From positions 1 to 30,709 of the IMG/VR virus record IMGVR_UViG_3300025889_000608: a stretch of 30,709 nucleotides of DNA, one strand, 5' to 3'. The notes beneath the pieces are model-generated. The model saw nothing but the letters and a program-made list of their open reading frames with translations. It was not told the DNA's origin and searched no databases. The position numbers and the translations under genes were made by a program. Origin of the DNA: a virus. This document shows positions 1,475-29,946 of this stretch, piece by piece. Numbering within the stretch: the stretch's first letter is position 1; each line of letters opens with the position of its first letter.

Positions 1475-1520
1475 AACTTTCTCGCGGAAAGTTGTTGCCT
1501 CTGGTTAGCCTCGCGTTAAG
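1475..1520 (+). promoter_or_regulatory. promoter with overlapping operator, copy 1 of 3
   Basis: An inverted repeat with arms AACTTTC (1475-1481) and GAAAGTT (1487-1493) runs into TTGTTG (1492-1497), followed after exactly 17 bases by GTTAAG (1515-1520). The same arrangement recurs at 9191 and 29872. After the -10-like hexamer comes GTAGCCAC (1523-1530), also conserved, and then the ribosome site GGAGACAG. The palindrome covers the -35-like element, so a bound repressor would block RNA polymerase. The -10 match is weak, and the promoter call rests on the conserved spacing in three unrelated contexts. Confidence 0.65.
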
Positions 1521-1548
1521 GTGTAGCCACAAGCAACGGAGACAGACC

Positions 1549-1812
1549 ATGGCACGCAACCGCAACGACATCATCATCATCGGCCGCGCGGGCTTCTTTA
1601 GCCCTTCACTTCAGCGAGAGTTCGGAAACGGGCCGATCGCGCTCCGCCGCAAGGAGCATCGCAAGTGGGGATGGTGGTGCTCCGCGACGAGTCGCTCGGC
1701 GGCCCGCTTCGCCTCGGAGGTCGAGGCCCGGGCCTGGGTGTACCGGACTTTCAAGTCACCGGCGGATCACACCAACCTCAGCACAATGGATCGGCGACTC
1801 CTGACCCGCTAG
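1549..1812 (+). CDS. small protein of unknown function, first gene of plus-strand cassette
   Basis: 87 residues from ATG 1549, which has GGAGACAG three bases upstream. The in-frame ATG-like start at 1492 lies inside the promoter and is rejected. The protein is basic (many R and K), with a short hydrophobic patch IIII at residues 8-11 and a WGWWC segment near residue 40. I recognise no family. It is the first gene after the operator/promoter at 1475 and sits between the candidate origin and two further small genes. A role as an early accessory (host takeover or anti-defence) protein is a guess from context only. Confidence 0.75.
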   Translation: MARNRNDIIIIGRAGFFSPSLQREFGNGPIALRRKEHRKWGWWCSATSRSAARFASEVEARAWVYRTFKSPADHTNLSTMDRRLLTR

Positions 1813-1832
1813 GCCGCCCGCCTCACCTCGAC

Positions 1833-1866
1833 GCCCGCCTCGGCGGGCTCTCACACTGGAGACAGC
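1833..1866 (+). repeat. hairpin plus ribosome-site block, copy A
   Basis: A 34-base block, identical to 2130-2163, that combines a GC-rich hairpin (GCCCGCC, TC, GGCGGGC at 1833-1848) with a leader containing GGAGACAG. It links the first and second genes of the cassette. The hairpin has no T-run, so it may trim or stabilise mRNA or attenuate transcription rather than end it fully. Confidence 0.7.
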
Positions 1867-2121
1867 ATGAAGTTTGTAGCAACCGAGATCCTCGTCACTC
1901 GCAACGACCGGGGCACGATCTTTGTCGAGATCGACGGTGACCTCGTCGCCGACGCGATCACCTTCCAGCGGCGCCGCGGGTTCTGGAACAAGCGCACCGA
2001 ACGCTGGGCGTCGGCCCGGCAGTTCACTCCGCGCAAGGTCGCCGCATCGCCTGAGCTAGTTCGCCACTACCTTGCCGAGACGGGCCTCGATGTCATCGGG
2101 CCGATCGTGGTCCGGTTCTAG
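1867..2121 (+). CDS. small protein of unknown function
   Basis: 84 residues from ATG 1867, with GGAGACAG one base before it. The sequence alternates hydrophobic and charged residues (FVATEILVTRND, TIFVEIDGDLVADAITF), suggesting a small beta-rich fold, and ends in a hydrophobic strand VIGPIVVRF. Residues 34-55 are basic and aromatic. I recognise no family. Both sides carry the same hairpin-leader block, so the gene looks like an exchangeable unit within the cassette. No membrane segment or signal peptide is visible. Confidence 0.75.
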   Translation: MKFVATEILVTRNDRGTIFVEIDGDLVADAITFQRRRGFWNKRTERWASARQFTPRKVAASPELVRHYLAETGLDVIGPIVVRF

Positions 2122-2129
2122 CCACCGCC

Positions 2130-2163
2130 GCCCGCCTCGGCGGGCTCTCACACTGGAGACAGC
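2130..2163 (+). repeat. hairpin plus ribosome-site block, copy B
   Basis: Exact second copy of the 34-base block at 1833-1866, with the hairpin at 2130-2145 and GGAGACAG at 2155-2162. One extra A separates it from the next ATG. The two copies enclose the 84-residue gene and could support loss or gain of that gene by recombination. Confidence 0.7.
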
Positions 2164-2164
2164 A

Positions 2165-2470
2165 ATGCGATTCAAACTGACCGACAACCGGCGCGAGAAG
2201 CTCGCCGTCATGGAGGCCCTCGGCTTCGAGGCGCTACCCGTCGACCCCTACAATACGCGACACCAGCGGGTCCGGTGCTCCTGCGGTAAGGAACTCCCCT
2301 ACTACCGCGTCGACATCGCCCGGGAGCATCGCGCCGCGTGTCAGCCCGCCGAGGCCGTCGAGGCGCCCCTCGGATGGAACGGCGCCGGGAACATCCCGCG
2401 GCGAGTAGCAGAGCAGATCGCCCACTACTTCGGAGAGATGGCGCGACATCCCGAGGAGACCCGACTCTGA
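2165..2470 (+). CDS. small zinc-finger-like protein, function unknown
   Basis: 101 residues from ATG 2165, chosen over the longer frame from 2072 because GGAGACAG stands three bases upstream and the longer start lies inside the previous gene. Residues C38, C40, H55 and C59 (CSCGKELPYY...REHRAAC) form a plausible CxC...HxxxC zinc site. The C-terminal part (residues 78-101) is helical and amphipathic. The nearest idea is a small nucleic-acid- or protein-binding zinc finger, but I cannot name a family. It is the last gene of the cassette and is followed by a strong hairpin terminator. Confidence 0.75.
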   Translation: MRFKLTDNRREKLAVMEALGFEALPVDPYNTRHQRVRCSCGKELPYYRVDIAREHRAACQPAEAVEAPLGWNGAGNIPRRVAEQIAHYFGEMARHPEETRL

Positions 2471-2495
2471 CAGAGGCCGCCCGCCTCGACTCGAC

Positions 2496-2527
2496 GCCCG
2501 CCCCTCGGCGGGCTTTCGTCGTCTTGG
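2496..2527 (+). terminator. hairpin terminator, shared with 30226-30257
   Basis: Stem GCCCGCC (2496-2502), loop CCTC, stem GGCGGGC (2507-2513), then TTTCGTCGTCTTGG. It ends one base before the TAG of the minus-strand helicase gene, so it separates convergent units. The same 32 bases, with one change (A for T after the stem), follow the plus-strand gene at 29947. Confidence 0.7.
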
Positions 2528-4522
2528 CTAGAACCCCGCGGCGACGGCCTCGGGCGTCAGGACGAGGAGCCGGACGCGCCTCGTCCCGACTTGCCGCTTC
2601 ACGGTCCAGTCTCGACCGCGGCGCTCGACCCATCCCCGCTCGCGCCACCGGGCGCGGATCCCCGCATCGTAGCCCGCCCGGGCGAGCCAGTCGTCGAGGA
2701 CCCGAGGCAGGACCCCGATCTCGTCGCCCTCCCATCGCCCGAGGTAGCCCCCGGGCGGCCCGGAGCTTCGAGACGCTCCGTCGTCGAAGGCGTCCTGATG
2801 CTGGGTCGCCAGTTCGCACACGGCCCGGAGGGCGGCGAGAGGGCGGTCGGCGTCCTCCCCTCCCGCCCTGACGGCCTCGGCGGCCCTCGTGAGGGGCTCG
2901 ACGCCCTCGGGCGGCTCTGGATACCCGACGGCCTCGACGAGGTCCCGGGCGACCTCTAGCAGGGCGAGGAGCGCCCCGAGGCGCTGGGCTACCGCTCCGA
3001 CCTCGGCGAGAGACGCGACCCACGCCTCGACGCTCTGACGGTAGCTCTCCCCGAGGCGTCGCCAGTCCTCCGACGTGTACCCGGCGAGGCGCTCGATCAC
3101 CCGCTCCCCGAGGTGTCCGTAGTGGTCGAGGATCCCGACCGTGAGGTCCCGGGCCTGACGGTCGGAGCGCAGAGGAGGCCCGACGAGACAGAGGCACCGC
3201 GCCCGAGAGCCGGCGTCTTCGGTGAAGCTCACGGCGCTCTGCTCACCCGTGGAGAGCATGATCGAGGACCACGTCGCCGACCGTCGGAGCCCGACGGCCT
3301 GGGAGCCCGCTCCGGGCTTCGCGCGCCCCTTCGCTTGCCCCTGACTGTGCTGGTAGATCAGCCCGGCGACATCCCGAGAGGATCGGGCGTTCTTCGAGTC
3401 GTCGAGAATCAAGGGGAGAGCCGAGAGGAGGTGGGCGACGCCCTCGGCACGGCTCACGGTGAGGCGCCAGCTCTGGAGCATCCGACCGTCAACAGGCTGC
3501 CCCCAGACCGACGCGGCGACCCGGAGGGCGGTCGTCTTGCCCTGCGAGGTCTCGCCGGACCAGTCGACGACCCACCCACGGGCGGTCCCGAGGCGCCCGA
3601 CGAGGACCGACGCGACCGACGCGTAGACGGCGAGGTGAACGTCGGGACAGTCGGCGGCGGTCGCCATCGAGGCGAGCCACCCGGCCCACGTCCCCGAGGT
3701 CGCGACGGCCTCGACGACTTGCTCCTCTCCACCGCCCGGGTCGACCTGGAGAGCGACGGCCCCGGTCCCATACCACCGACGCCCGAGGAGGAACCCCGCG
3801 GCCCTCGATGTCGAGACCCACCCGCAACGGCTCGCGACTAGCTCGACCGGTAGGCGGGCGGCGTTGGTGGCGAGGGCGGCATCGAGGTAGCCGACGAGGA
3901 CCGACGCGTTCCTCGATGTTACCCCGGCCCCTCGATCCCCGAGGGTCGCGACGAGGCTCCGACCGTCGACGGTGACGCTCTGGCGGACCGTGCGCTCGTA
4001 GTGACCCGCCCACCCGGGCCACGAGAGCCGGACGTGATGATCCCCCGTGTCGACATCGAGGAGCCGACCGACGGGAGCGAGCGGGACCGTCGAGAGCTGG
4101 ACGAGGTCGTCGGTCACGGGATCAGGACCCCAGACGCCCGAGGCGTCGACCCTCCACCCCGGAGGAGCCCGCCACCCATCCGGCACGCCCGCGAGAGGGG
4201 CGGCGGCCTTCTCGGCGACGAGACGGAGCCCTCGACCCTCGGCGCGCACGCGTCGCCGTAGCTGATCGACCGCGGACGCGAGGCCCCGAGAGGCCCGGAG
4301 GCGGACGAGGTAGGCGTCCCAGGCGCCCCCGTCCTCCCGGGCGAGTGTCGACAGCCTCGGGAGCCAGCGAGCCCCGAGGAGGCCCGCCACGGCCTCGACG
4401 CGCTCGTCCTTCGTCATCGTCGCCAGGTTCCCGACGAGGTCGTCGAGGTACTGATAGGTCTCCTCGATCTCGACAGGGCCGATCACCCGAAGCCCGAGGT
4501 CGTCGGCGAGGGTCTCGCTCAT
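2528..4522 (-). CDS. DUF927-domain DNA helicase/ATPase
   Basis: 664 residues from ATG 4522, which overlaps the primase stop as ATGA. The 11-codon-longer start is rejected. The middle has a P-loop GETSQGKTTALRVAASVWG (Walker A near residues 323-331) and an acidic Walker B strand LPLILDD (near 369-375), followed by SKNARSSRDVAGLIYQ and SIMLSTGE, the arrangement of the DUF927 family of predicted helicases found in phages, plasmids and mobile elements next to primases. The N-terminal 200 residues are not recognised. The C-terminal about 60 residues are basic (RARWRERGWVERRGRDW) and resemble a winged-helix DNA-binding end. It is the last gene of the minus-strand replication operon and probably unwinds DNA at the phage origin with the upstream primase. 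Helicase activity is inferred from family context. Confidence 0.85.
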   Translation of the reverse strand: MSETLADDLGLRVIGPVEIEETYQYLDDLVGNLATMTKDERVEAVAGLLGARWLPRLSTLAREDGGAWDAYLVRLRASRGLASAVDQLRRRVRAEGRGLRLVAEKAAAPLAGVPDGWRAPPGWRVDASGVWGPDPVTDDLVQLSTVPLAPVGRLLDVDTGDHHVRLSWPGWAGHYERTVRQSVTVDGRSLVATLGDRGAGVTSRNASVLVGYLDAALATNAARLPVELVASRCGWVSTSRAAGFLLGRRWYGTGAVALQVDPGGGEEQVVEAVATSGTWAGWLASMATAADCPDVHLAVYASVASVLVGRLGTARGWVVDWSGETSQGKTTALRVAASVWGQPVDGRMLQSWRLTVSRAEGVAHLLSALPLILDDSKNARSSRDVAGLIYQHSQGQAKGRAKPGAGSQAVGLRRSATWSSIMLSTGEQSAVSFTEDAGSRARCLCLVGPPLRSDRQARDLTVGILDHYGHLGERVIERLAGYTSEDWRRLGESYRQSVEAWVASLAEVGAVAQRLGALLALLEVARDLVEAVGYPEPPEGVEPLTRAAEAVRAGGEDADRPLAALRAVCELATQHQDAFDDGASRSSGPPGGYLGRWEGDEIGVLPRVLDDWLARAGYDAGIRARWRERGWVERRGRDWTVKRQVGTRRVRLLVLTPEAVAAGF

Positions 4523-5379
4523 GTGTTCTCCCAGGTCGTGAGCGGGCCGAACCACCCGCAGCTATTCTGATGCGCACACCACGCCGACGCCTTCCGTCCG
4601 GGCTCGACGTACCAGAGGACCGACGCCCGCCCGCAGCCGGGACAGGTGACGTCCTTCACAATCCGCCCCGAGGGGCGCTCGACGATCCTAGCCCCGAGAC
4701 GGACGGCGAGGGCCTCCCGCGCGTCGGCGTCCTCCCGTAGCCTCCGACCGAGAGCGCGGTCGAGGTCGTCGCGGCTCTGGTAGACCTCACGCGCCCGACG
4801 GGCGGCGAGCTTGCGCGCGGCCTCCTTCGCCGCGGCGGCCTCCTCGATGCGAGCGAGGGCGGCCTCGTGATCGGTGCGCAGATCGAGCCGGTCCCCGGGC
4901 CGGTAGACCGCCCGGTGAGGCCCGCCCGCCCCGATCGCGGGGAGGAAGTAGGCCCTCGACGGGTCGCGACACTGGCGATCCGCGTCGGCGACGATCGCCC
5001 CGTAAAGCTCCGACCACCCGTCGGCGGGGATCGGGGTGCGGAGGGGGAGGACGAGACGACATCGAGGGGCGTCCTCTCGGTGAGACCACGACGTGTGAGC
5101 GACGGCCTCGTAGTCAGCCCACGCCCCGAGGGCCTCGTCGAGGGTCGTCCCGTCGTCGTAGTCGAGGACGAGGAGCGAGACTTCGACGGCGTCGCCGAGG
5201 CTGCGACGACCGCCCTCTCGGAAGCGGCACGGGCTCCACAGTGGGCACGCGTCGAGGCGGTCCTCCTTCGTCCCCTCGATGGGTCGAAAGGTGCGGAGCG
5301 CGACGGCAAGGCGCGGCCAGGAGATCGATCGCTCGACGGGCCTCGGGTCTCGGGCGTGTCGAAAGAATGAGACGATCAC
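4519..5379 (-). CDS. AEP-type primase / primase-polymerase-like protein
   Basis: 286 residues from GTG 5379, overlapping the previous stop as GTGA. The frame remains open upstream, but that part is an arginine-rich shadow of other genes. D73 and D75 in LVLDYDDG, then TSWSH at 96-100, RCRLVLPLRTPI at 106-117 and CRDPSRAYFLPA at 137-148 follow the motif order of archaeo-eukaryotic-type primases (DxD, SxH, late D). Residues 165-240 are a charged helical linker. C246, C249, C268 and C274 form a zinc ribbon near the C-terminus. The protein should make primers, and perhaps extend them, beside the DUF927 helicase, whose start overlaps its stop. The primase call rests on motifs and gene pairing. Confidence 0.8.
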   Translation of the reverse strand: MIVSFFRHARDPRPVERSISWPRLAVALRTFRPIEGTKEDRLDACPLWSPCRFREGGRRSLGDAVEVSLLVLDYDDGTTLDEALGAWADYEAVAHTSWSHREDAPRCRLVLPLRTPIPADGWSELYGAIVADADRQCRDPSRAYFLPAIGAGGPHRAVYRPGDRLDLRTDHEAALARIEEAAAAKEAARKLAARRAREVYQSRDDLDRALGRRLREDADAREALAVRLGARIVERPSGRIVKDVTCPGCGRASVLWYVEPGRKASAWCAHQNSCGWFGPLTTWENT

Positions 5380-7029: not shown

Positions 7030-7679
7030 AGTTGCACCCCGAGGATCTGGGCGACCCTCCACAGTTCGGCGAGGCGCCTCTCGACGAGGACGTCCTCGAC
7101 GACGTGGTCCTCGATGCGTCCGAGATGACCCCCGGCCCACAGATACGGCACCGTCGACCCCGGAGCCGTCTCGACGGGCACGCCCCAAGCCTCGGCGGCG
7201 GCGGCCTTGCTCACGTACCGGCCCGGTAGGCACTCGGGCGCGAAGCGCATCAGATCGAGGAGCCGCTCGGGGTAGCGGATCCCGTGACCTCCCCAGACCT
7301 GCGGACTGAACACGTCGGCGAGTCGGTAGCGACCGTGCACGAGCGCCCGGGCGCGGAGGACGGGGAAGTCGAACCCCGGGCCATTCCAGGCGAGGAGCGT
7401 CGGAGCGCCCCGCATCGGCGCGACGTAGGCGGCGAGAGCATCGAGGAGCCCGTCCTCATCGGGGCCGATCTGGACGATCGTATCACCCCCAAGGAGCGGG
7501 ATCAGCGCCCACGCGATCACCTGACAGCGGCGAGGGTGCAGGGCTTGCCGCAGATAGAGGCGCTCGGCCTCTCCCGGGTCGTCGAGCCCGGCGAACTTCT
7601 CGGGGATCTCGATTGTCTCGCCGAAGGCGAGCCCCTCGGGAATCGTCTCGATGTCGAGGACGTAGGCGGCGGGCGTCAT
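7026..7679 (-). CDS. DnaQ/PolB-like 3'-5' exonuclease
   Basis: 217 residues from ATG 7679 (ATGA overlap with the previous gene). Exo I is VLDIETIP with D9 and E11. Exo II is LLAWNGPGFDFPVL with D104. The C-terminal helix has DHVVEDV with H192 and D196. This is the DEDD exonuclease order, closest to the stand-alone PolB-type 3'-5' exonucleases that accompany phage replication genes. The usual tyrosine of Exo III (YxxxD) is replaced by histidine, HxxxD. The enzyme would trim 3' ends for proofreading or recombination. No DNA polymerase is visible in the window, so it probably works with host polymerase or with Erf/SSB recombination. Confidence 0.85.
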   Translation of the reverse strand: MTPAAYVLDIETIPEGLAFGETIEIPEKFAGLDDPGEAERLYLRQALHPRRCQVIAWALIPLLGGDTIVQIGPDEDGLLDALAAYVAPMRGAPTLLAWNGPGFDFPVLRARALVHGRYRLADVFSPQVWGGHGIRYPERLLDLMRFAPECLPGRYVSKAAAAEAWGVPVETAPGSTVPYLWAGGHLGRIEDHVVEDVLVERRLAELWRVAQILGVQL

Positions 7680-7876
7680 GCGTCGCCCCGCTCGACGGAG
7701 ATCCCGAACCGCTCAAGACCGGCCCGGATCAGGACCTCGGCGACCTGGGCCATCGAGACCCGGATCCCGGGCGCGGCCTCGGTCTCCAGATACCGCCGGT
7801 AGACCTCCATAGCATCGACGACACCGGGCGCCGGTCGGATCGTGACCCGGGCGCGTTCCTCGCTCTGACTGCTCAT
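7676..7876 (-). CDS. ribbon-helix-helix-like small DNA-binding protein
   Basis: 66 residues from ATG 7876, preceded by AAGGAGG. RVTIRP (10-15) could be the DNA-contacting strand, followed by two helices, GVVDAMEVYRRYLE and VSMAQVAEVLIRAGLERFG. This is the size and pattern of a CopG/Arc-type ribbon-helix-helix protein, although the strand is followed by prolines and the match is not perfect. It is the first gene of the minus-strand replication operon and faces Erf across a 109-base divergent promoter region, the usual place for an autoregulator. It is a candidate regulator of both operons. The family assignment is by pattern only. Confidence 0.7.
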   Translation of the reverse strand: MSSQSEERARVTIRPAPGVVDAMEVYRRYLETEAAPGIRVSMAQVAEVLIRAGLERFGISVERGDA

Positions 7877-7985: not shown

Positions 7986-8660
7986 ATGAGCGACGAGACA
8001 ACCCCGCCCGGTGTGATCACCGTCGGCGGCTTGACGATGACAACCGCACAGGATCAGATCGCCGCCGCCCTCGCGAAGGCGCAAGCCCGGGTCAGGAAGG
8101 CCCGAAAGAACGCGCGAAACCCTCATTTGCGGAACGAATACGCCGATCTTGAGAGCGTGATCGACGCGACCCGAGGAGCCCTCGCCGAGAACGGCCTCGC
8201 GCTTGTCCAGGCACCCCAGGTCGTCGAGGGCGCGGCGGGCGTCCGGTGGACCCTCGTGCACGCCTCGGGACAGTGGATGTCGGGGGAGCTGATGCACGCA
8301 ACGGGCGGCGCGAAGGGCCTCCGACCCGCACAGGCGGACGGGGTCGCCATCAGCTACGCGCGCCGCTACACGCTGTCGGCCCTCCTCGGGGTCGCCACGG
8401 GCGACGACAGCGACGGAGCGGTCGAGGTTGCCGGTCGCGATCGGCGCTCGGGGAGGGTGATCGACCGCCGCGAGACGCATCCGAAGGTCTGGGCCTCCTT
8501 CGTCGAGGACCTCGCCGGGGTGAACCTGACCGTCGAGGAGGTCGATGCCTTCCTCGCAGCTCGGGGCCGCCCTCGATGCCACGAGACGCCCGACGACCGG
8601 TGGGGCGCCCTCGTCGCGTGGGCAACGACGCCCGAGACCGCGGCGAAGGTGCACGCATGA
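7986..8660 (+). CDS. erf: Erf-family single-strand annealing recombinase
   Basis: 224 residues from ATG 7986, with AGGAGG four bases upstream. The 25-codon-longer frame lies in the promoter region and is rejected. The core has the ERF family signature: NPHLRNEYADLESVIDATRGAL, then a strand pair ending in SGQWMSGEL, then GLRPAQADGVAISYARRYTLSALLG and GDDSDGA. Family members bind single-stranded DNA and promote annealing, as P22 Erf does during genome circularisation and recombination. The C-terminal third (residues 155-224) is a separate helical part, often variable in this family. It probably works with the phage SSB and exonuclease. It heads a plus-strand operon opposite the replication operon. 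Confidence 0.92.
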   Translation: MSDETTPPGVITVGGLTMTTAQDQIAAALAKAQARVRKARKNARNPHLRNEYADLESVIDATRGALAENGLALVQAPQVVEGAAGVRWTLVHASGQWMSGELMHATGGAKGLRPAQADGVAISYARRYTLSALLGVATGDDSDGAVEVAGRDRRSGRVIDRRETHPKVWASFVEDLAGVNLTVEEVDAFLAARGRPRCHETPDDRWGALVAWATTPETAAKVHA

Positions 8661-8926
8661 CGCCCCGGGAGGAGAGGCTCGAAGCGTTCCTTCGGGGCCG
8701 CGGTTGGGGGCTCGCATGGCACGGGCCGCCCGCTGATCGGTGGTTCTGCGCTCGGGCGGTCTCGCGCCCGTGGACCGGCCTCGTCGTCTCGGTGCACGTC
8801 ACCCCCGACGCCGACGAGGTTGTCGAGCTGGAGACGCTCGGGTCGCCGACCGTCGAGAGGCTCCTCGGATGGACCCAGGACCTACGCGAGGCCCTCGAAG
8901 TCTACCACCGGCCCGACAGTGACTAG
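8657..8926 (+). CDS. small protein of unknown function
   Basis: 89 residues from ATG 8657, overlapping the Erf stop as ATGA. The protein begins with a charged helix (TPREERLEAFLRGRGWG) followed by strands (WFCARAVSRP, TGLVVSVHV) and an acidic C-terminal helix. It is an alpha/beta protein without a recognisable motif. Translational coupling to Erf suggests a recombination accessory, though this is only context. The longer frame starting at 8246 lies inside erf and is rejected. Confidence 0.75.
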   Translation: MTPREERLEAFLRGRGWGLAWHGPPADRWFCARAVSRPWTGLVVSVHVTPDADEVVELETLGSPTVERLLGWTQDLREALEVYHRPDSD

Positions 8927-9191
8927 GGCCGCCCTTGCCGCGGCGCGTCTCGGCTTGATCCTCTGGACGCCCCCGAAGTCGATCCTCGACGGCCTCGACA
9001 TCCTCGCCGAACTCGGAGGGGAGGCGACGGTCGGCGAGGTGCTCGCGCACGTCGGCGCGTCGAACTGGAGCAACTGGATCCAACGCCTCGACACTCTCGT
9101 CGCCCGCGGCCTCGCCGAGGTGATCGAGGGCCGCCCGAGGCGCTACCGGCTGACGAGGGCGGGCCGATTGTTGCGGACGAAGGCGGCGTAA
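8919..9191 (+). CDS. winged-helix DNA-binding protein
   Basis: 90 residues from GTG 8919, overlapping the previous gene by eight bases. LDGLDILAELGGEATVGEVLAHVG (from residue 23) followed by SNWSNWIQRLDTLVARGLAEVIEG and RPRRYRLTRAGRLL has the helix-helix-recognition-helix-wing pattern of MarR/PadR-like winged helices. Its TAA stop lies on the first base of the operator palindrome at 9191. A regulator encoded directly beside the operator it binds is a common arrangement, so it is a prime candidate for the protein that controls the three repeated operators. This link is inference. Confidence 0.75.
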   Translation: MTRAALAAARLGLILWTPPKSILDGLDILAELGGEATVGEVLAHVGASNWSNWIQRLDTLVARGLAEVIEGRPRRYRLTRAGRLLRTKAA

Positions 9192-9238
9192 CAACTTTCT
9201 CCCGCAAAGTTGTTGCGCCTGTATTGCCTTGCGTTAAG
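9191..9238 (+). promoter_or_regulatory. promoter with overlapping operator, copy 2 of 3
   Basis: Perfect 8-base inverted repeat ACAACTTT (9191-9198) and AAAGTTGT (9206-9213) with a 7-base centre, overlapping TTGTTG (9210-9215). After 17 bases comes GTTAAG (9233-9238), then the conserved GTAGCCAC (9241-9248) and GGAGACAG (9254-9261). Layout and spacing are identical to copies at 1475 and 29872. It drives the plus-strand genes from 9265 onward, giving them control separate from erf. Confidence 0.7.
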
Positions 9239-9264
9239 TGGTAGCCACTGAACGGAGACAGACC

Positions 9265-9558
9265 ATGACTAGCCGCGAAACTTGGACAAACGAGGGCACA
9301 CACGAGGGCGTTACCGCTTGGAGCCTGCACATCGACGGCGCCTACGTCGGGGCCTTGGAGCGTCAGCGCCCGACCCGCTACGCCGCGGGCGCTCGTCGCG
9401 GGTTGGCTCGCGACGCGTCGAAGGCTTGGGAGTACGACGGCGAGGCATTCGACGCCGCCGTCTCTCGGGTCGTGAGTGTCACGATCCCCGAGGGCTCGAC
9501 GCTCCGTCAGGCAAAGGCGATCGTCGAGGCCGCGGCCCGGGCCGAGATCGCCCGCTAG
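9265..9558 (+). CDS. small protein of unknown function, first gene after operator copy 2
   Basis: 97 residues from ATG 9265, three bases after GGAGACAG. The start at 9238 lies in the promoter and is rejected. N-terminal residues 15-55 suggest strands (VTAWSLHIDGAYVGAL) then a basic segment with AAGARRGLARDASKAWEYDG, and the C-terminus is a helix (LRQAKAIVEAAARAEIAR). No family recognised and no similarity that I can see to the genes behind the other two operator copies. It is probably an early accessory protein. Confidence 0.75.
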   Translation: MTSRETWTNEGTHEGVTAWSLHIDGAYVGALERQRPTRYAAGARRGLARDASKAWEYDGEAFDAAVSRVVSVTIPEGSTLRQAKAIVEAAARAEIAR

Positions 9559-9605: not shown

Positions 9606-9956
9606 ATGAACGGAACCATCGGACACCTTCGCAACGTCGCCGACCTCGTCGCGGCTCTGAACATCGAGGCGATCCTCGCCGAGGCGGGCCTCTCGTCTCA
9701 CGAGAGCGCGACCGACCTCGCCCTCGAAGTCGAGGCGGGCGTCGCCGCCCTGCGAGAGGTTGCTCAGCTAATCCTCGATGTCGAGACGACGCCCTCGTTC
9801 ACGACTCGCCAGGTCCACGACCTTGCCGACGAGGCCGCCCGCGCTGGCGACCGCGAGACCGTCGAGGCGTGCGAGGCGTACCTCGACAACCCCGAGGCCG
9901 GATGGGCCGCGGACATCATCGACGAGGCCCTCAGCTACGCCCGGGCGATGCAATGA
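9606..9956 (+). CDS. acidic helical protein of unknown function
   Basis: 116 residues from ATG 9606, with GGAGACAG four bases upstream. It is very acidic and almost entirely helical, with segments such as NVADLVAALNIEAILAEAG, DLALEVEAGVAALREVAQLIL and WAADIIDEALSYARAMQ. No catalytic motif, membrane segment or zinc site is seen. Small acidic phage proteins sometimes mimic DNA or bind host proteins, but nothing here proves it. Its stop overlaps the next start as ATGA. Confidence 0.75.
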   Translation: MNGTIGHLRNVADLVAALNIEAILAEAGLSSHESATDLALEVEAGVAALREVAQLILDVETTPSFTTRQVHDLADEAARAGDRETVEACEAYLDNPEAGWAADIIDEALSYARAMQ

Positions 9957-10111
9957 CCGGCGTGATCGCGGCTTACGCCGCCTTGGGTCTCGCCCTGCTT
10001 CCAATGGCGACCGAGGACGACCTCGACCGCCGGATCCGCCTCGCGTGCGCGGCGGCTCTCTGCCTCGTTTCCGTCCTCGACGGCGCCGCGCGCCTCTGGA
10101 GTCTCTCGTGA
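9953..10111 (+). CDS. small membrane protein with two predicted transmembrane segments
   Basis: 52 residues from ATG 9953 (ATGA overlap). Two hydrophobic stretches, VIAAYAALGLALLP (4-17) and LACAAALCLVSVLDGAA (30-46), are separated by the charged turn EDDLDRRIR, the shape of a helical hairpin in the membrane. It could be a holin-like or superinfection-type membrane protein, but it lies among DNA-binding genes and away from the lysis block, so no function is assigned. Its TGA overlaps the next GTG. Confidence 0.7.
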   Translation: MTGVIAAYAALGLALLPMATEDDLDRRIRLACAAALCLVSVLDGAARLWSLS

Positions 10112-10413
10112 GCTGGACACCTGATCCCGCATTCATTCAACCCGGCGAAGCGTCCGACCGCGAGGTCGCCAACGTGCACGGGGTGCACCGGTTGACGGTG
10201 ACGAAGTACCGCCGCCGTCACGGCATCCCCTCCGGGGGCCGTATGGGGCGCCCTCCGGGCTCGGGCGCCTGGGTCCCGGCCTCGGGTCGTCTCCAGCCCG
10301 GCGAGGCGACAGACGAGGCCGTCGCGGCCTCACAAGGCGTCCCCGTGTCGCGGGTCCTCCGCTACCGTCAGCGCCACGGGATCGCGTCCTTCGGTCGCCG
10401 GGGTGATGCGTGA
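10108..10413 (+). CDS. tandem helix-turn-helix DNA-binding protein
   Basis: 101 residues from GTG 10108, overlapping the previous stop as GTGA. It consists of two copies of one module: QPGEASDREVANVHGVHRLT followed by YRRRHGIPSGG (11-44), and QPGEATDEAVAASQGVPVSR followed by YRQRHGIASFG (63-96), joined by a proline/glycine linker. Each has the D-x-x-VA-x-x-x-GV-x-x-x-x-V-x-x-YRxRHGI pattern of a phage-type HTH. A protein with two covalently linked HTHs could bind a direct repeat or a palindrome as a monomer. It is a candidate transcription regulator. Confidence 0.8.
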   Translation: MSWTPDPAFIQPGEASDREVANVHGVHRLTVTKYRRRHGIPSGGRMGRPPGSGAWVPASGRLQPGEATDEAVAASQGVPVSRVLRYRQRHGIASFGRRGDA

Positions 10414-10709
10414 GCCCCTACACCCCGCAGCGGTTGCCGTTCGTCCGCGGGAGCGAGACGAGCGAGCGAGCCGCAGAGTCGATGGAGGCGCACGCCGACA
10501 CGCTCCGCGGGCGCTGTATGACGTGTATCCGAGACGCGGGCGCCTCGGGCGCAACGTGCGACGAGGTCGAGGAGGCCCTCGGCGGTGTCCATCAGTCGAT
10601 CTCGGCCCGGATCCGGGAGCTTGTTCAACTCCGCTTGATCTACGACACCGGCCTAACGCGGCTCACCCGCTCGGGTCGCGACGCGAGGGTCTACGCCGTC
10701 GTCGACTAG
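10410..10709 (+). CDS. winged-helix DNA-binding protein
   Basis: 99 residues from GTG 10410 (GTGA overlap). ASGATCDEVEEALGG, then HQSISARIRELVQLRLIYDTG and RLTRSGRDARVYAVV form a winged helix of the kind common in small phage regulators, with the wing at the C-terminus. C36 and C39 (CMTC) stand before it. It is the last gene of the plus-strand run. Its TAG stop overlaps by four bases (CTAG, 10706-10709) with the TAG stop of the convergent gene on the minus strand. Confidence 0.75.
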   Translation: MSPYTPQRLPFVRGSETSERAAESMEAHADTLRGRCMTCIRDAGASGATCDEVEEALGGVHQSISARIRELVQLRLIYDTGLTRLTRSGRDARVYAVVD

Positions 10710-10915
10710 CGGACGAGCCAGACGACCGCCCCGATCAGGAGCCCGGCGAGGATGCACGTCGAGACCCTGATCGGGGCCTTGACGTTTTGCGGAGCGGGCT
10801 CGGGCATGGCTTCACGAACCGCTGCGAGGGCCTCACGGGCCGCGGCGACTTGGGCGAGGTCGATCCCCGAGGTGAGAGTCCCGCGCGCCATAGCCGCCCG
10901 ATCTGCCTCGCTCAT
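10706..10915 (-). CDS. tail-anchored small membrane protein, probable lysis-block gene
   Basis: 69 residues from ATG 10915 (ATGA overlap with the previous gene). The longer frame start at 10996 is rejected. It has a helical, alanine-rich N-terminal part and a single hydrophobic C-terminal segment VSTCILAGLLIGAVVWLVR (51-69), so the bulk faces the cytoplasm and the end sits in the membrane. It is the last gene of the late transcript. It could be a holin partner or an antiholin. No lipobox for a spanin is visible. Confidence 0.75.
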   Translation of the reverse strand: MSEADRAAMARGTLTSGIDLAQVAAAREALAAVREAMPEPAPQNVKAPIRVSTCILAGLLIGAVVWLVR

Positions 10916-20324: not shown

Positions 20325-21004
20325 AGGCGCCCCATTCCGTCGAGGATGTCGTCGTAGATGCGCCCCGCGGCGACCTTGCCCGGATCGAAGACGAGGGCGT
20401 CGGCGACCCGGCGGCCCTTCCGCGGTGCTTGCCGTCGAGTCTGCGCGAGGTCGATCCGTCGGAGGACCCCGATCGCGTAACCGTAGTTCACGAGATCGAC
20501 CTGTTTCGCCCCGACGGCGATCGCCTGTGCCCACTTCTTACGCGAGATCCCGCGCGGCGGCTTTCCCATCATCGCCAGCTCTTCGGGCTTCAGCTCTCGG
20601 GTGATCTCGCGGCCCTTCTTCTTACCCTTCTGCGCCTCTCGTATAAAGTAGGCGTAGGGCGCATTACAGACAATCGACCCGGCGAGCTTGGTGTCGGTGA
20701 TCTCCCACTCGAACCCGAGGAGCGACAGAGACAGGCCCGTGTCATAGGGCCAGGACTTGAACATCTGATTTGCCACCGGCCCTAGGTGCCGATTGAACGA
20801 GTCCGCAATCATCGGATAGGCCCGCTCGATCAACTGGAAAATCTTCTTATTCAGCAGCGGATCGGGCTGGATTAGGTCGTTTTCTCGCATTCCTCCGGTG
20901 TGCTTCAGGTAATGGTGACCGCGGCGGTGCCACCGGGCCTCCTTGATCTGGCCCTTCCTCGATACGGGGAAGCGTTGACGCTCGAAGAACTCGGAGAGGG
21001 CCAC
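20321..21004 (-). CDS. HK97 gp10-like head-tail/tail-completion protein
   Basis: 227 residues from GTG 21004; the region upstream in this frame is arginine-rich shadow. SWPYDTGLSLSLLGFEWEIT followed by SIVCNAPYAYFIREAQKG resembles the HK97 gp10 pattern (W-dTG...g.i.N-a-Y-A), and the C-terminus is basic and helical. The family completes tails or joins head and tail. Its place, between the tail chaperone and the tape measure, is unusual, since gp10-like genes normally precede the tail tube gene. An alternative is a different minor tail protein that shares the fold. Confidence 0.55.
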   Translation of the reverse strand: MALSEFFERQRFPVSRKGQIKEARWHRRGHHYLKHTGGMRENDLIQPDPLLNKKIFQLIERAYPMIADSFNRHLGPVANQMFKSWPYDTGLSLSLLGFEWEITDTKLAGSIVCNAPYAYFIREAQKGKKKGREITRELKPEELAMMGKPPRGISRKKWAQAIAVGAKQVDLVNYGYAIGVLRRIDLAQTRRQAPRKGRRVADALVFDPGKVAAGRIYDDILDGMGRL

Positions 21005-21006
21005 GG

Positions 21007-21581
21007 CTACACCTGAAACGCGTCGAGGGCGTCGAGGCGCCCCTCGGCGTTGCGGATCGGGGCGCTCTGCCTCGGGCGCTGGCGAGACCGGTGCAGCTCC
21101 CACCCGAGGAGGGCGACGAGGGCGTCCCGGTCTGTCTCGGCGAGTCGATAGAGCGCCATCGGATCCCCGTAGTGAGTCAGCCCGAGACGGAGGTAGAGGC
21201 CGTGGAGGTCTCCGCCCGGGCCTCGGAGTTTCCCGCGGCCTCCTCGATCTCGTCGTCTTTCGGCATCTGCTGGAGAACGTCGAGGAGCACGCGCGACCCG
21301 TGCTCGATGATCTCGGGCACCCTGACGCCCCGACCGAGGAGGGCGTCGACGACCCTCTCGCCGTAGTCGACCACGTCGGCGCGTAGGGCGCGCCTCTGGG
21401 CGCTCGGGCTCTCCCCGAGGGCGTCGGGTAGGGCCTGACCGAGGACGGCCCCACAGACGGCGACGAGGTCGTCTGACGAGCCCTCGGCGTCGACGTAGGC
21501 GCTCCGGAGTCGGAGGCGGATCGGGATCAGGATCACGGCGGGCCGGTAGTCGGTCCCCCCGAGGGTGATCGGGTCGCTCAT
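21007..21581 (-). CDS. tail assembly chaperone, -1 frameshift product (gpGT-like)
   Basis: The chaperone reading frame shifts back one base at the slippery heptamer at 21228-21234 and continues to the TAG at 21007-21009. The product would have 118 residues of the short form plus 73 new ones beginning LRGPGGDLHGLYLRLG and including DPMALYRLAETDRDALVALLGWELHRSR, 191 in all. The second frame has no ribosome site or suitable start of its own, overlaps the first by 48 or more bases, and is in the -1 frame, exactly as in lambda G/T. Long form binds tape measure and tube subunits in the known system. It is followed by the gp10-like gene and the tape measure. Confidence 0.85.
21177..21581 (-). CDS. 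tail assembly chaperone, short form (gpG-like)
   Basis: 134 residues from ATG 21581, preceded by GAGGAGACAG. Sequence is acidic and helical after residue 30 (SSDDLVAVCGAVLGQALPDALGE, RVVDALLGRGVRVPEIIEHG), similar in size and place to lambda gpG (140 residues). The last 16 codons (SEARAETSTASTSVSG) follow the slippery site and are low-complexity, as in other unshifted tails. The protein keeps tape measure protein soluble and guides tube assembly. It is not present in finished virions in known systems. Confidence 0.85.
   Translation of the reverse strand: MSDPITLGGTDYRPAVILIPIRLRLRSAYVDAEGSSDDLVAVCGAVLGQALPDALGESPSAQRRALRADVVDYGERVVDALLGRGVRVPEIIEHGSRVLLDVLQQMPKDDEIEEAAGNSEARAETSTASTSVSG
21228..21234 (-). 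other. programmed -1 ribosomal frameshift site G-GGA-AAC
   Basis: Reading the minus strand, GCG GGA AAC TCC in the first frame becomes GGG AAA after slipping one base back. GGGAAAC has the X-XXY-YYZ form and is one base from the lambda site GGGAAAG. It sits 16 codons before the end of the short form. Confidence 0.85.
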
Positions 21582-21646: not shown

Positions 21647-22120
21647 TCAGGTGACCGCAACGGTGCCGTTGTTCGTGCCGGAGAAGGACATCGTCGAGCC
21701 CTCCTTCGCCTCGCTGAAGTCGACCCCGCCCTGAACCACGGGGAGGGTGATCGTCGCCGTGTTCGTGCCGTCGGTCATCGTGACCTCGACGATAAAGGCC
21801 CAGATCGTCGAGTCTACCGAGGTCGCGCTCGCAAACGCCCCGGTCTTCATGACGAAGTCGCGGACCCGCTCGGCGACCCCGTCGGTGAGGCTCTGGTTCT
21901 CGATCTCGATCGTGATCGACACGTCCTGCTCTAGGTCGTCGCCGACGACAAATCCGTCGTATGTGCCGCGGTCGAGAACCCGGATCCGCTCGGCGTTGTC
22001 GGCGTTGGTCTCGCCGATCGAGAGGTCGCCCGGACCCGGGCCGACGACCACGTCAAGAGGGGTCGGTGACGTAGCGTCGATGAACTTTACCGAGGTGAGA
22101 CGCGAGGTAAAACGGGCCAT
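21647..22120 (-). CDS. major tail tube protein
   Basis: 157 residues from ATG 22120, preceded by AAGGAGG. It is entirely beta-rich with strands such as SITIEIENQS, FIVEVTMTDGTNTATITLPVVQGG and TMSFSGTNNGTVAVT at the C-terminus, typical of siphovirus tube proteins. The position, after the tail terminator-like gene and before the chaperone and tape measure, is the normal one. Strong ribosome site fits a highly made subunit. No Ig-like C-terminal domain is attached. Name given by context and fold pattern, not by close homologue. Confidence 0.8.
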   Translation of the reverse strand: MARFTSRLTSVKFIDATSPTPLDVVVGPGPGDLSIGETNADNAERIRVLDRGTYDGFVVGDDLEQDVSITIEIENQSLTDGVAERVRDFVMKTGAFASATSVDSTIWAFIVEVTMTDGTNTATITLPVVQGGVDFSEAKEGSTMSFSGTNNGTVAVT

Positions 22121-22613: not shown

Positions 22614-23378
22614 TCACCACCACGGAGCGCGGCGGCGGTAGCGCGCCCGGGCGCCCCCGCGGTGAATCGTGCGGCTCATGCTCTCGCGGCTCTCGGAGTC
22701 GGGGAGGCCGTCGTCGTCGCGGTCCATGCGGGCGCGTAGGTCTTTCATGACCTTCTGGTATTCGGCCCGGTGAAGCTCCATAAGGCGCTCGCTCCTCTCG
22801 GAGTCATTCGTCGAGAACAGGAACCGGAAGACCTTCACGTAGGTCGACTGACGGATCGGCTCGAAGAGGTCGCTCGGGCCAGTGATCAGGTCGGGCCACT
22901 GCCCCTTCTGCTCTAGCTCTCGGAGGACGTCGCGCTTCGCGGCCTCGATGAACGTCTGAAGATTTGTGCCGTAATCTCCTAGCTGATCGACGAGGTCGGG
23001 GTATTCACCCGCGGTCAGGTCGGCGTCGGTGACGGGGAGAATCATGGGGAACCGGGCGACGGTGCACGCCCGCGAGACCGTCCGGGCGAGGCCGTCGAGG
23101 GTCAGGGTCCACCGGAGTTGGTAGAGCTGACCGGTCGGCTCGGTAGCCGGTAGGTCGACGGCTCCGATCGTGTAGGTCGCGACCGAGGACACGATCGACG
23201 CGGCGGCGTCCTCGACCACGTAGGTCCCCGCCGGTCGGACGAGCGAGACCGTCGCCGCGGTCGGGGCGACCTTCGCCCCGTCGCGCCAGACCTCCAGGGT
23301 AACGGTATTCGCCCGCGCCCTCTGGAGGACGTCGGGGCCGCTCTGGCGGTAGGTGTAGACGGTCTCGCCGCTAGACAT
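22614..23378 (-). CDS. head-tail connector protein with beta N-domain
   Basis: 254 residues from ATG 23378. Residues 1-110 are beta-rich (TVTLEVWRDGAKVAPTAATV, VSRACTVARFPMIL), like an Ig-like or adaptor barrel. Residues 120-254 are helical and charged (TNLQTFIEAAKRDVLRELEQ, RLMELHRAEYQKVMKDLRAR), as in head-completion adaptors, and the end is arginine-rich. The order capsid-connector-terminator-tube supports the name. It is separate from the preceding beta-rich gene by four bases. Exact adaptor or stopper role is undecided. Confidence 0.65.
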   Translation of the reverse strand: MSSGETVYTYRQSGPDVLQRARANTVTLEVWRDGAKVAPTAATVSLVRPAGTYVVEDAAASIVSSVATYTIGAVDLPATEPTGQLYQLRWTLTLDGLARTVSRACTVARFPMILPVTDADLTAGEYPDLVDQLGDYGTNLQTFIEAAKRDVLRELEQKGQWPDLITGPSDLFEPIRQSTYVKVFRFLFSTNDSERSERLMELHRAEYQKVMKDLRARMDRDDDGLPDSESRESMSRTIHRGGARARYRRRAPWW

Positions 23379-23382
23379 CAGA

Positions 23383-25698: not shown

Positions 25699-25718
25699 AG
25701 CGGCGACTCCTAGCTAGT

Positions 25719-25745: not shown

Positions 25746-25794
25746 CTGTTGCCGCCGGGTTCGCGTAGTGGGCCAATGATCGGATCTTGCCCCG

Positions 25795-26424
25795 TCAGGC
25801 GCGCGGCGTCAACCACCGCGACCCATAGGACGTGCCGCTCTGCTGCTCGACGGCCCGGAGGGCTTCGTCTTGTTGCTCGCGTGTCATCGATCGGAACTCG
25901 GGCGAGGTGAGGAACGCGGCGGCGTCCTCGCGACTCATGCCCGAGGACCTCGGAGCCGAGGCGGGCGCCCCCCGAGAGAGATCCGGGAGCGAGGCCGGAC
26001 TCGGTACCGAGACAGCGGTGGTACCGTCCCCCGAGGGAGCGCCCGCGGAGAAGTAGCCCGCGAGGAGAGGGACCTCGCGACCGGGTCCGCCCTCGGCCAA
26101 AAAGTCGGCGAAGGTCGGCGCCTCGTCGAGGCCCGCGGTCCGGGACTGGTAGATCGCCTCGATGTCGCCGAGGGCGTCGGCAGGGATCCCGAGGGTCCCG
26201 AGGAGCTGTGTCCGGGTCGCGCGCTCGATCTGTCCTCGCAGCTCTCCGACCTGACTCTCGAACGGCTCCAGGGCGGCGACCCGCTCGCGTAGCTTGACGA
26301 TCTCCGCCCCGGCGAGCTTCGCCTCGGCGCGGACGGCTGCGAGCTGCTCGGCGTGCTTCGTCTTCGCACGGTCTAGGCGCTCTTTCACGATCTGATCGAC
26401 TTGCTCCTGACTGAACTCGCTCAT
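25795..26424 (-). CDS. capsid scaffolding protein
   Basis: 209 residues from ATG 26424, with GGAGACAG just upstream; the ORF's earlier start is inside the previous gene. Residues 1-60 form a coiled coil (FSQEQVDQIVKERLDRAKTK, then EAKLAGAEIVKLRERVAALE). The middle is alpha-helical (GTLGIPADALGDIEAIYQSR), a linker is rich in S, A and P, and the C-terminal end is helical and charged. This shape and its place directly before the capsid gene match phage scaffolds. It should leave the prohead before packaging. Confidence 0.85.
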   Translation of the reverse strand: MSEFSQEQVDQIVKERLDRAKTKHAEQLAAVRAEAKLAGAEIVKLRERVAALEPFESQVGELRGQIERATRTQLLGTLGIPADALGDIEAIYQSRTAGLDEAPTFADFLAEGGPGREVPLLAGYFSAGAPSGDGTTAVSVPSPASLPDLSRGAPASAPRSSGMSREDAAAFLTSPEFRSMTREQQDEALRAVEQQSGTSYGSRWLTPRA

Positions 26425-26789
26425 CCTGTCTCCCTTCGCCTCGCGAGGCGTTCGAGGTACCATTCCCGATCGTATTCGCGGAGGATGCGACGCGACCACG
26501 CGCGGCCCGCATCCCCGCCCCATCCGGACCACGCTTGACGTCCCTTCGAGGGATACCCCGGCTCTCCAGGGCGGAACCCTTCGGCGTCCTTGTCGACCTC
26601 GTGGCGCTGGAAATACGACCACATCCGACGGACGGTGTCGAGGCTGACCGGCTGACCCTCGGCAAGCTGGACGGCCCGACGGACCCCGACCGGCGTCATC
26701 GCTCGACGGCTAGGCGGAAGATCCGCGCGCCAGTCTAGAGCGCGGCGGGCCTCCTTGCGTACCTCGGCGGGCGCCCTCCATGGAGGCAC
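26421..26789 (-). CDS. conserved phage protein with SYFxRHEVDK motif, function unknown
   Basis: 122 residues from GTG 26789, one base after the portal stop. It contains TVRRMWSYFQRHEVDKDAEG and EPGYPSKGRQAW then WGGDAGRAWS, a motif set that recurs in phage proteins near portals and proteases, often fused to those. Here it stands alone. Its basic N-terminal helix may touch DNA or portal. Stop overlaps scaffold ATG as ATGA. The exact function of the family is unknown to me. Confidence 0.75.
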   Translation of the reverse strand: MPPWRAPAEVRKEARRALDWRADLPPSRRAMTPVGVRRAVQLAEGQPVSLDTVRRMWSYFQRHEVDKDAEGFRPGEPGYPSKGRQAWSGWGGDAGRAWSRRILREYDREWYLERLARRRETG

Positions 26790-26790
26790 G

Positions 26791-28425: not shown

Positions 28426-28429
28426 AGGG

Positions 28430-29845
28430 TCACCCGTAGCGCAATGAGAGAGCCACCGCCCGCTGAGAACCAACGAGCCTCTCGACAGGGTACCTCGCCG
28501 CATCCAAAATATCCTTACTCGGATCCTGCTTGTGTCCCTGAAAGACCATGAAGGCCCTAGCTAATTCGGGACACCGCGGCGAGACGAGGAGGTGAGGCGT
28601 CCCCCTCGTGTCGGTCGCCGAGAGGCTATTCAACATCGTCAACCCGGCGACGACGCTCCCGTCGAACTTGCGCGGAGTCGTGATCCGCGGGAAGCGATTG
28701 TAGGCGATCCCCGCGAGGGCGGCGAGGTGTCGCCGAAGGATGCTGTTGCTCTTTCGGACGAGGCCCCGGGCGTCCGCTGGACGGTCGCCGACCCAGAGGT
28801 CGACGTCCTCGACTTCGAGGCCCGCCCGGTGAAGCATCGAGACGATAGCCCGGGCGTCCTCCTCCTGACTCGTCTGTGCGTGCCCGACGTGCTCGGCGAG
28901 GTACCAGACCCGAGGCCGTAGGGAGTCAGCTCCGACGACGGCCCCGACCACGGCGGCCTGTTTGCCTCCGACGATCCCGTGGTCGATCCCGACGAAGACG
29001 ACGGCCCCGGCGGGCGGCTCGTCGCCCCGAACGTGGGTCTCGGTGCTGAATGCCGAGATCCACCGCTCGTCGACGAGGGGATCCCACGCGCCCTCGATCC
29101 TCATGCGCTGGACGGGTAGCGGTAGCGAGGCCCGGAAGGAGTCGAGCATCGTCCGCGAGTAGTAGGGGAACGGCGCCCCGTCGGGGAGGCAGTTCTCGGG
29201 CTTCAACCCGTGATTGTGCTCGACGATTACGCCCCGGTCGATCAGGTCGCGTAGCCATTGCATATCGGGCATGTTTGGAACGGGCGTGAAGTTGATCCGC
29301 ATCGTCCCGCCATACTTGAGAAGCCGCGGTCGAAGCTCCTCATACGTGCCCGCCGGCATCGGCTCATCCGAGAGGACGTGGTGAATGGTCGAGCCCGCGT
29401 AGCGCGTCGGGTCCTGTTTGAACGTCCCGAAGAAGATCACCGACCCCGCGCCCGGGCCGCTTCGGAACACGAGCCGCGGAGGCTTGCCGGTGATCCCCCG
29501 CCCCGGCTCAAAGCCGGTCTTCGGGTCGAGTTCCTCGGTCGGGATCAGGTTGTATAGCTTCTCCATAATCCCGCCCGGTTGCCCCATCTGCTCCAGGCTG
29601 ACGCCCACGACGACGGCATACACAGGCGGGCGCCTCACGGCCTGCCAAGGGTGCGTCCCTCGGCATCGATGGACGAGGTCGACGAGGGAGCCCGTCGTCT
29701 TGCCCAACTGATTGCCATCACGCCAGAGGGCGATCGGGGCGGCCTCCTCCAGCCATTGCCGCTGAGGCGCGGTCGGCCTGAAGCTGAACAGCGAGCACGA
29801 GAGCGAGTCGAGGAGGACGTCGCGCGTCGCCTCTGCCCAGCTCAC
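28430..29845 (-). CDS. terL: terminase large subunit
   Basis: 471 residues from GTG 29845. Walker A GNQLGKTT at 44-51, Walker B VLSDE at 157-161, and the nuclease domain opens with VVFVGIDHG, D288 being the first metal ligand. Coupling motif region follows Walker B (RINFTPVP). The protein packages and cuts phage DNA at the portal. The nuclease end contains the usual later acid patches (VDLWVGDRPADARG). Length is normal. The candidate small subunit lies just upstream but is separated by the plus-strand cassette at 29872-30257. The start has no strong ribosome site, so an internal start is possible. Confidence 0.92.
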   Translation of the reverse strand: MSWAEATRDVLLDSLSCSLFSFRPTAPQRQWLEEAAPIALWRDGNQLGKTTGSLVDLVHRCRGTHPWQAVRRPPVYAVVVGVSLEQMGQPGGIMEKLYNLIPTEELDPKTGFEPGRGITGKPPRLVFRSGPGAGSVIFFGTFKQDPTRYAGSTIHHVLSDEPMPAGTYEELRPRLLKYGGTMRINFTPVPNMPDMQWLRDLIDRGVIVEHNHGLKPENCLPDGAPFPYYSRTMLDSFRASLPLPVQRMRIEGAWDPLVDERWISAFSTETHVRGDEPPAGAVVFVGIDHGIVGGKQAAVVGAVVGADSLRPRVWYLAEHVGHAQTSQEEDARAIVSMLHRAGLEVEDVDLWVGDRPADARGLVRKSNSILRRHLAALAGIAYNRFPRITTPRKFDGSVVAGLTMLNSLSATDTRGTPHLLVSPRCPELARAFMVFQGHKQDPSKDILDAARYPVERLVGSQRAVALSLRYG

Positions 29846-29871
29846 GCGAGAACCCCGGGCGGCCCTGCGGT

Positions 29872-29920
29872 TACAACTTTATCGCAGAAAGTTGTAGCCA
29901 GGATGCGACGGCGCGTTATG
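29872..29920 (+). promoter_or_regulatory. promoter with overlapping operator, copy 3 of 3
   Basis: Nine-base inverted repeat TACAACTTT (29872-29880) and AAAGTTGTA (29888-29896) with 7-base centre, overlapping TTGTAG (29892-29897); 17 bases on, GTTATG (29915-29920), then GTAGTCAC (29923-29930) and the ribosome site GGAGACAG (29938-29945). It is the most perfect of the three operators. It drives a plus-strand gene between the two terminase genes. Confidence 0.7.
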
Positions 29921-29946
29921 TTGTAGTCACCAAACAGGGAGACAGT

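Follow-up and report, generated by a model that had tools for sequence, protein, structure and literature searches.

Three sites in the 30,709-base viral record IMGVR_UViG_3300025889_000608, the whole of which was analyzed here (the window, G000), carry the same inverted repeat and promoter-like core upstream of small plus-strand genes, and are probably a single regulated promoter in three copies, each at the head of an exchangeable accessory transcription unit (cargo slot). As read from the sequence, this module is conserved and oriented, a hairpin of one family stands behind each of the slot-1 and slot-3 genes, and relatives keep the module and the 3' flank, change the coding sequence and can have an empty slot 3.

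The palindrome AACTTT-N7-AAAGTT was found exactly at positions 1475-1493, 9193-9211 and 29875-29893 (sites 1, 2 and 3). The window had no other match even when 2 mismatches were allowed, and shuffling its dinucleotides 100 times gave a mean of 0.03 matches (maximum 1). Palindrome arms in the window are 6-9 bases long, and the palindrome at site 3 is the longer TACAACTTT-7-AAAGTTGTA. An earlier note on this DNA had described one layout shared by three sites, and the same three places were recovered from the exact palindrome, from a 56-base repeat family (82% and 70% identity to the first copy) and from a 41-base profile of the promoter core. This profile scored 57.2-57.8 bits at the three sites (high by construction, as it was trained on seven sites including these three), as compared to 4.9 bits for the next best match, which overlaps site 3 on the opposite strand, and 4.2 bits for the best match in 20 mononucleotide shuffles. 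The palindrome center lies 65, 63 and 63 bases before the start codon at sites 1, 2 and 3, respectively, and all three start codons are on the plus strand.

Within the putative promoter/operators 1 (1475-1530), 2 (9193-9248) and 3 (29875-29930), all on the plus strand, the hexamers and the 17-base spacing given in the earlier note were found as described, i.e., TTGTTG (1492-1497) and GTTAAG (1515-1520) at site 1, TTGTTG (9210-9215) and GTTAAG (9233-9238) at site 2, and TTGTAG (29892-29897) and GTTATG (29915-29920) at site 3, as were the sequences after the second hexamer (GTAGCCAC, GTAGCCAC and GTAGTCAC). Of the 12 sigma-70 consensus positions, these hexamers match 5 or 6. An alternative core lies 2-3 bases downstream (TTGCCT, TTGCCG or TAGCCA, a 16-base spacer, and TATGTT at five of seven sites or TAAGGT); in the window it reads TTGCCT (1495-1500) and TAAGGT (1517-1522) at site 1, TTGCGC (9213-9218) and TAAGTG (9235-9240) at site 2, and TAGCCA (29895-29900) and TATGTT (29917-29922) at site 3. 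This shifted reading gave better matches (7 or 8 of 12) at six of the seven sites. Depending on the site and the reading, the right palindrome arm either stops directly at the -35-like element or extends two bases into it. Invariant over the seven distinct sites are the runs GTTGT-N-GC and GCGTTA-N-G-NN-GTA-NN-CA. From this conservation, spacing and orientation we infer that the sites function as promoters. By contrast, GGAGACAG, which had been counted as part of the module, does not belong to it; GGAGACA occurs eight times, before six plus-strand genes (three of them without the promoter) and two minus-strand genes, and thus represents a general ribosome-binding (Shine-Dalgarno) sequence outside the module.

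Relatives of the window (G001-G006, G009 and G010) were obtained from IMG/VR searches with the terminase and the capsid protein. G001 is 99.99% identical to the window across 12,277 bases, hence it was not treated as independent; it repeats site 3 and was left out of the count of seven distinct sites, which come from G000, G002, G003 and G004. The earlier note had made its reading depend on conservation of the palindrome in related phages, and such conservation was observed: all seven distinct sites have the core, and five of them have an intact palindrome. In slot 3 of G004 the right arm is changed (3 of 6 pairs left), and in slot 2 of G002 the left arm is changed (1 of 6 pairs left); as the core is kept at both sites, palindrome and core are separable. 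These two sites are also the only ones in which a palindrome ATGTT-GTA-AACAT was seen, by eye, near the start region. No palindrome match with up to one mismatch was found in G007, G008 or G009, and G010 showed a single, chance-like match with one mismatch. A wide pattern scan of IMG/VR yielded at least 117 stretches, at least 2 of them (L028 and L107) in relatives found later. The core pattern alone was found in 5 stretches. L150 was rejected as a chance match to the core pattern, as by eye its start codon and ribosome site are not in place. Such scans may miss stretches; the G003 contig, which has the core, was missing from the matches of two scans.

Slot 3 is located between the terminase and its upstream neighbor. 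The terminases of the window, G002, G003 and G004 are 92-99% identical, and the slot-3 genes behind the promoter have 85, 154, 162 and 56 codons, respectively. Compared to the window, identical columns numbered 86/107 (G002), 91/105 (G003) and 79/106 (G004) in the 5' flank (75-87%) and 57, 59 and 59 in the 63-base 3' flank (90-94%), as opposed to 216/470, 209/496 and 132/263 in the coding part (42-50%, from a gapped global alignment without a chance control). The window slot-3 protein (s3) gave no protein match below E 0.9 against the slot-3 proteins of the relatives. The G002 and G003 slot-3 proteins share their C-terminal half (63% over 103 amino acids) and not their N-terminal half, as if parts had been exchanged inside the slot; no usable match was seen among the other slot-3 proteins. 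The more distant contigs G005 and G006, which are alike here, have no slot 3 insert; in these contigs the stop codon of the upstream gene overlaps the terminase start, whereas the cassette separates these two genes in G000-G004. In slot 2, G002 corresponds to the window up to the stop codon of the winged-helix gene, and then shows a 61-codon extra open reading frame (ORF; third-position GC 76%), the promoter core and a gene for a 137-amino-acid protein different from that of the window. Slot 1 lies beyond the ends of the near relatives' contigs; this comparison thus covers slots 2 and 3. Overall, the genes can be regarded as accessory, as the earlier note had proposed, since relatives differ in the gene behind the promoter and some of them have nothing in slot 3. 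A further variable place was seen in G002 (20808-21216) and G006 (22913-23318), where approx. 400 bases separate a pair of structural genes that directly adjoin each other in the window.

Unrelated small plus-strand genes, as given in the earlier note, were found at all three sites, and site 1 heads three genes rather than one. These are s1a (1549-1812; 87 amino acids, isoelectric point [pI] 11.6, GC by codon position 56/57/82%), s1b (1867-2121; 84 amino acids) and s1c (2165-2470; 101 amino acids); slot 2 contains s2 (9265-9558; 97 amino acids) and slot 3 contains s3 (29947-30204; 85 amino acids, pI 4.5), all on the plus strand and with s1a, s1c and s2 lacking a profile match. That the downstream proteins share no visible similarity held among these five, for which the only match below E 1 covers 17 residues (E 0.45). 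Across window and relatives, nine slot genes appear coding, with third-position GC of 81-92%. The s1a gene is followed by a hairpin, GCCCGCCTCGGCGGGC (1833-1848, plus strand), and then by the ribosome-binding linker of s1b; a second copy of the hairpin linker is found at 2130-2145 (plus strand), and the two slot 1 linkers are 97% identical across 39 bases. Slot 1 ends in a terminator-like hairpin stretch (2495-2527, plus strand), of which 33 and 32 identical bases recur at the end of slot 3 in G003 and G004, respectively, and slot 3 of the window ends in a terminator-like hairpin at 30226-30243 (plus strand). Hairpins of the form GCCCGCC..GGCGGGC occur in the window only behind s1a, s1b, s1c and s3 (the slot 2 gene has none), and in the G002, G003 and G004 contigs only behind the slot-3 gene. 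A terminator scan called none of these hairpins, and no long T run follows them.

A homologue of s1b was found in the distant contig G010 (L162; 54.5% identity over 66 amino acids), where it stands in a row of small genes (9796-10713) separated by repeated CCCCCTCGGGGG/CCCCCTTGGGGG hairpins and GGGAGGACAACATG ribosome-binding linkers. The structure model of s1b (pLDDT 90) gave no fold match in PDB or BFVD at E ≤ 0.001. In two libraries, s1b had sub-cutoff matches to NAD-dependent DNA ligase (E 0.035-0.12, same region), which are weak but come from three models of one family. A tblastn search of phages found nothing with s1b or with the G003 slot-3 protein, and none of the matches from a viral scan with s1b could be confirmed as a relative, despite the homologue in G010.

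A different palindrome was observed in G006 (L141; terminase 83% identical), in which the place of slot 2 holds approx. 4 kb of small plus-strand genes. TGCAGA-N22/23-TCTGC precedes four of these genes (at 3348, 4855, 5254 and 6125, all plus strand) and is found nowhere else in G006 (one minus-strand match is the fourth site reversed); neither the window nor any of six other relatives contains it, and the mean over 200 dinucleotide shuffles was 0.03 with a maximum of 2. Nine G006 matches to a looser pattern comprised the four sites, the fourth site reversed, and matches at 882 (plus) and at 21816, 11824 and 6128 (minus), which were taken as chance or overlap. Three of the four sites enclose TCGACA/TAGACA-17-TATATC/T, and the fourth is a poorer match. 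This fourth site heads a 105-amino-acid protein with matches above the Pfam cutoffs for winged-helix and MarR domains, a combination with the layout of an autoregulated repressor. Downstream of the first site, past an 84-amino-acid gene and possibly another ORF, is a DNA methyltransferase gene.

If the sites are copies of one regulated promoter, host sigma-70-type RNA polymerase would initiate approx. 7 bases past the second hexamer, and a phage helix-turn-helix (HTH) protein would bind the palindrome, centered near -45 with its right arm at or two bases into the -35 element, and limit transcription, as Aca proteins do. This regulator would most likely be encoded downstream of promoter 2, by 10108-10413 or 10410-10709 (both plus strand), giving a feedback loop. 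The cargo genes may act on the host or host defenses, and may be exchanged by homologous recombination through the shared flanks, perhaps with the phage's Erf-like single-strand annealing protein (7986-8660, plus strand) as a candidate agent. The 10108-10413 protein was modeled as two HTH units on one chain (pLDDT 81, pTM 0.42); in G000, G002 and G006 alike, one of the sites lies upstream of it, and it is 92% identical in G002 and just 52% identical in G006, where the palindrome differs. It gave no PDB fold match at E ≤ 0.001, and its coding region (10108-10410) gave a single weak excisionase match (E 0.07). These data on the regulator are suggestive only. The 10410-10709 protein has a weak Pfam HTH_20 match below the cutoff and is 100% identical in G002. 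Alternative candidates are a winged-helix-like protein just upstream of promoter 2 (8913-9191, plus strand; Pfam matches below the cutoff), at whose stop codon promoter/operator 2 begins, and a small putative DNA-binding protein (7676-7876, minus strand; Pfam HTH_53 below the cutoff). PDB sequence searches with 10410-10706 and 8913-9188 yielded nothing useful, and G004, a partial contig with a damaged palindrome, showed no match to 10108-10413 or 10410-10709.

Several observations weigh against this reading. The core is a weak sigma-70 match by either reading (5-8 of 12, hexamers 16 or 17 bases apart); site 2 fits the shifted reading less well (5 as compared to 6 of 12), and neither a promoter nor a terminator was called by a strict consensus scan at the three window slots. 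The seven sites stem from a single clade, represented by four records (five including G001). The palindrome is broken at two of them, including promoter 2 of G002, which in the proposed model would drive the regulator, and the changed left arm upstream of the 10108-10413 counterpart in G002 speaks against that protein as the regulator. The position of the operator also differs, since it borders the core on the upstream side in G000 and lies across it in G006, and nothing ties the Erf-like protein to exchange. An anti-defense role finds no help from library searches, which gave no usable family match for s1a, s1b, s1c, s2 and s3, nor for the slot genes of the relatives (best E 0.0042, to a PHROG of unknown function).

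It is possible, although we propose it tentatively, that the slots in this clade of small phages represent standardized, centrally regulated sockets with a fixed promoter/operator and terminator, in which only the coding sequence from start to stop is exchanged and a lineage-specific operator (one palindrome in G000-G003, another in G006) is paired with a cognate phage regulator. Alternatively, the palindrome may be an activator site: a protein of the phage or the host, bound near -45, would bring RNA polymerase to a core that is deliberately weak, for timed rather than immediate expression. The weak hexamers agree with this, and a palindrome centered near -45 suits class II activation. We consider this rather unlikely, as two of the seven sites have the core without an intact palindrome and the G006 palindrome lies across the core, in a repressor-like position. 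Promoter variants are not slot-specific, since site 1 is 78% identical to slot 3 of G002 and 63% identical to site 3 of its own genome, and slot 2 of G002 is 92% identical in the core to slot 3 of G004. This would fit a module that serves mainly as shared homology for cassette exchange, its conservation reflecting recent exchange and regulation being incidental, as would the 32-33 identical 3' flank bases common to slot 1 and the relatives' slot 3 and the presence of an Erf-like gene. Yet the arms are unchanged at five sites while bases between the core elements are widely variable, as a binding site would predict, and at the three window sites the distance from palindrome to start codon stays within 63-65 bases, which makes this explanation improbable. 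Control by a host regulator, with cargo responding to host state, agrees with the lack of a phage protein tied to the site but is the least probable explanation, as the 50-base pattern had no exact match in a species-genome collection (a weak point, since looser sites are possible) and a different palindrome in the same role in G006 is easier to reconcile with a fast-evolving phage regulator.

Our best reading, by analogy, is that the three sites head moron-like cargo units under one regulated promoter that resembles ESAS and acr-aca promoters. A moron is an accessory gene with its own promoter and terminator, inserted between genes that are adjacent in a relative. The slot 3 insert separates genes that are adjacent in G005 and G006, and a conserved promoter-like core and hairpins would represent the unit's own signals, although consensus scans call neither at the slots; unlike morons, several units here share one palindromic promoter. 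For PeSL cassettes of T4-type phages, promoter and stem-loop reportedly form one composite element; the present phage is a 30.7-kb phage not of T4 type, with the hairpin behind the gene and no promoter composite. The repeated regulatory sequences of PeSL cassettes are said to mediate gene shuffling (Arbiol 2010 and Comeau 2014, as cited in PMC4503421).

In cluster K mycobacteriophages, ESAS/SAS elements are described (PMC3203893, PMC11373665) as dispersed conserved stretches with an inverted repeat and putative -35/-10 elements before small genes and a linked start-proximal sequence, and the ESAS repeat consensus varies between subclusters. The likeness is one of layout, as ESAS letters were not compared: three dispersed inverted-repeat copies precede small genes here, and the repeat differs between G000 and G006 as it does between subclusters. 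ESAS -35/-10 elements are SigA-like with 17-18 bp spacing; the core here has a spacing of 16 or 17 bases and 5-8 of 12 consensus matches, and was not called by the scan. However, GGAGACAG, a general ribosome-binding site found even at two minus-strand genes, is less specific than SAS; ESAS follow gene families, whereas in the present phages different genes stand behind a constant promoter; these phages also have closing hairpins and an empty slot; and no core-gene relation to named phages was seen with terminase, capsid and portal among 50,697 phage records at E ≤ 1e-5. In acr-aca systems, which have Aca repressors, small variable genes are preceded by a promoter with an inverted repeat within its core or next to it (PMC9410906). 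Here, an HTH gene lies downstream of a putative promoter with an inverted repeat (a MarR-type gene at site 4 of G006 and the tandem-HTH gene at promoter 2 of G000, co-transcription being assumed), and the inverted repeat abuts or overlaps the -35-like element, or spans the core in G006. The units here are separate rather than in one operon, and Pfam, PHROGs, NCBIfam and PADLOC returned no known acr or Aca name for the scanned proteins (no dedicated acr/aca library was used). Small unrelated anti-defense genes of archaeal viruses share an early regulatory sequence that is more conserved than the genes (PMC11065993), comparable to the regulatory sequence common to small unrelated genes here; that source describes TATA/BRE promoters and early expression shown for the archaeal viruses, unlike the present case.

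Shared palindromic promoters of small genes (ESAS, acr-aca) and a shared early promoter of archaeal virus genes are already known. New, in a literature search not made by phage group name, are that the coding sequence is replaced while the promoter and terminator flanks around it stay constant, that a slot can be empty, and that the palindrome switches from one lineage to another. If the favored reading is true, a short sequence would flag orphan genes that a phage treats as swappable, in a phage group for which the named phage records searched yielded no close relative. It would also provide a bacterial case of promoter-guided discovery of anti-defense genes, in which the slots are defined, an empty site can be compared and each of two lineages offers a testable pair of regulator and operator; for archaeal viruses, such discovery has already been done (PMC11065993). 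Should the slots be standardized sockets, their sequences could serve as bait for unknown host-takeover or anti-defense genes in uncultured phages.

No host was found in the species-genome collection, in which the terminase profile matched patterns in 72 stretches, none of which was confirmed as a relative. Among the 50,697 phage records, the primase/helicase matched 16 (23-38% identity) and the single-strand binding protein (SSB) matched 1,939, all below 60% identity. A 122-amino-acid protein (26424-26789) matched 33 phage records, led by Roseobacter phages (47-55% identity), three of which share the general layout; it was the sole one of four structural proteins searched with named-phage matches. 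In the Roseobacter phages CRP-406, CRP-831 and CRP-811, its counterpart lies within a gene annotated as major capsid protein.

The window has a G+C content of 69%. Among identified genes, the minus strand carries the replication and virion genes and the plus strand carries the Erf-like gene with several small genes as well as the slot genes. As regards a prophage, no integrase was found among the 31 of 43 listed window proteins scanned with PHROGs. Positions 1-8 and 30702-30709 are both AAATCCAC, and the G001-G006 contigs (ends of L121-L126) end at the homologous base; these identical ends, which are likely filled-in cohesive ends, and the matching contig ends suggest that the record probably covers a linear genome in full. 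By eye, a candidate replication origin was noted at 1130-1475, by the primase block, where repeated CCCGAC/GTCGGGC words flank an AT-rich stretch (approx. 1285-1365), and L134 shows tandem GGGACAAGT repeats at the matching place.

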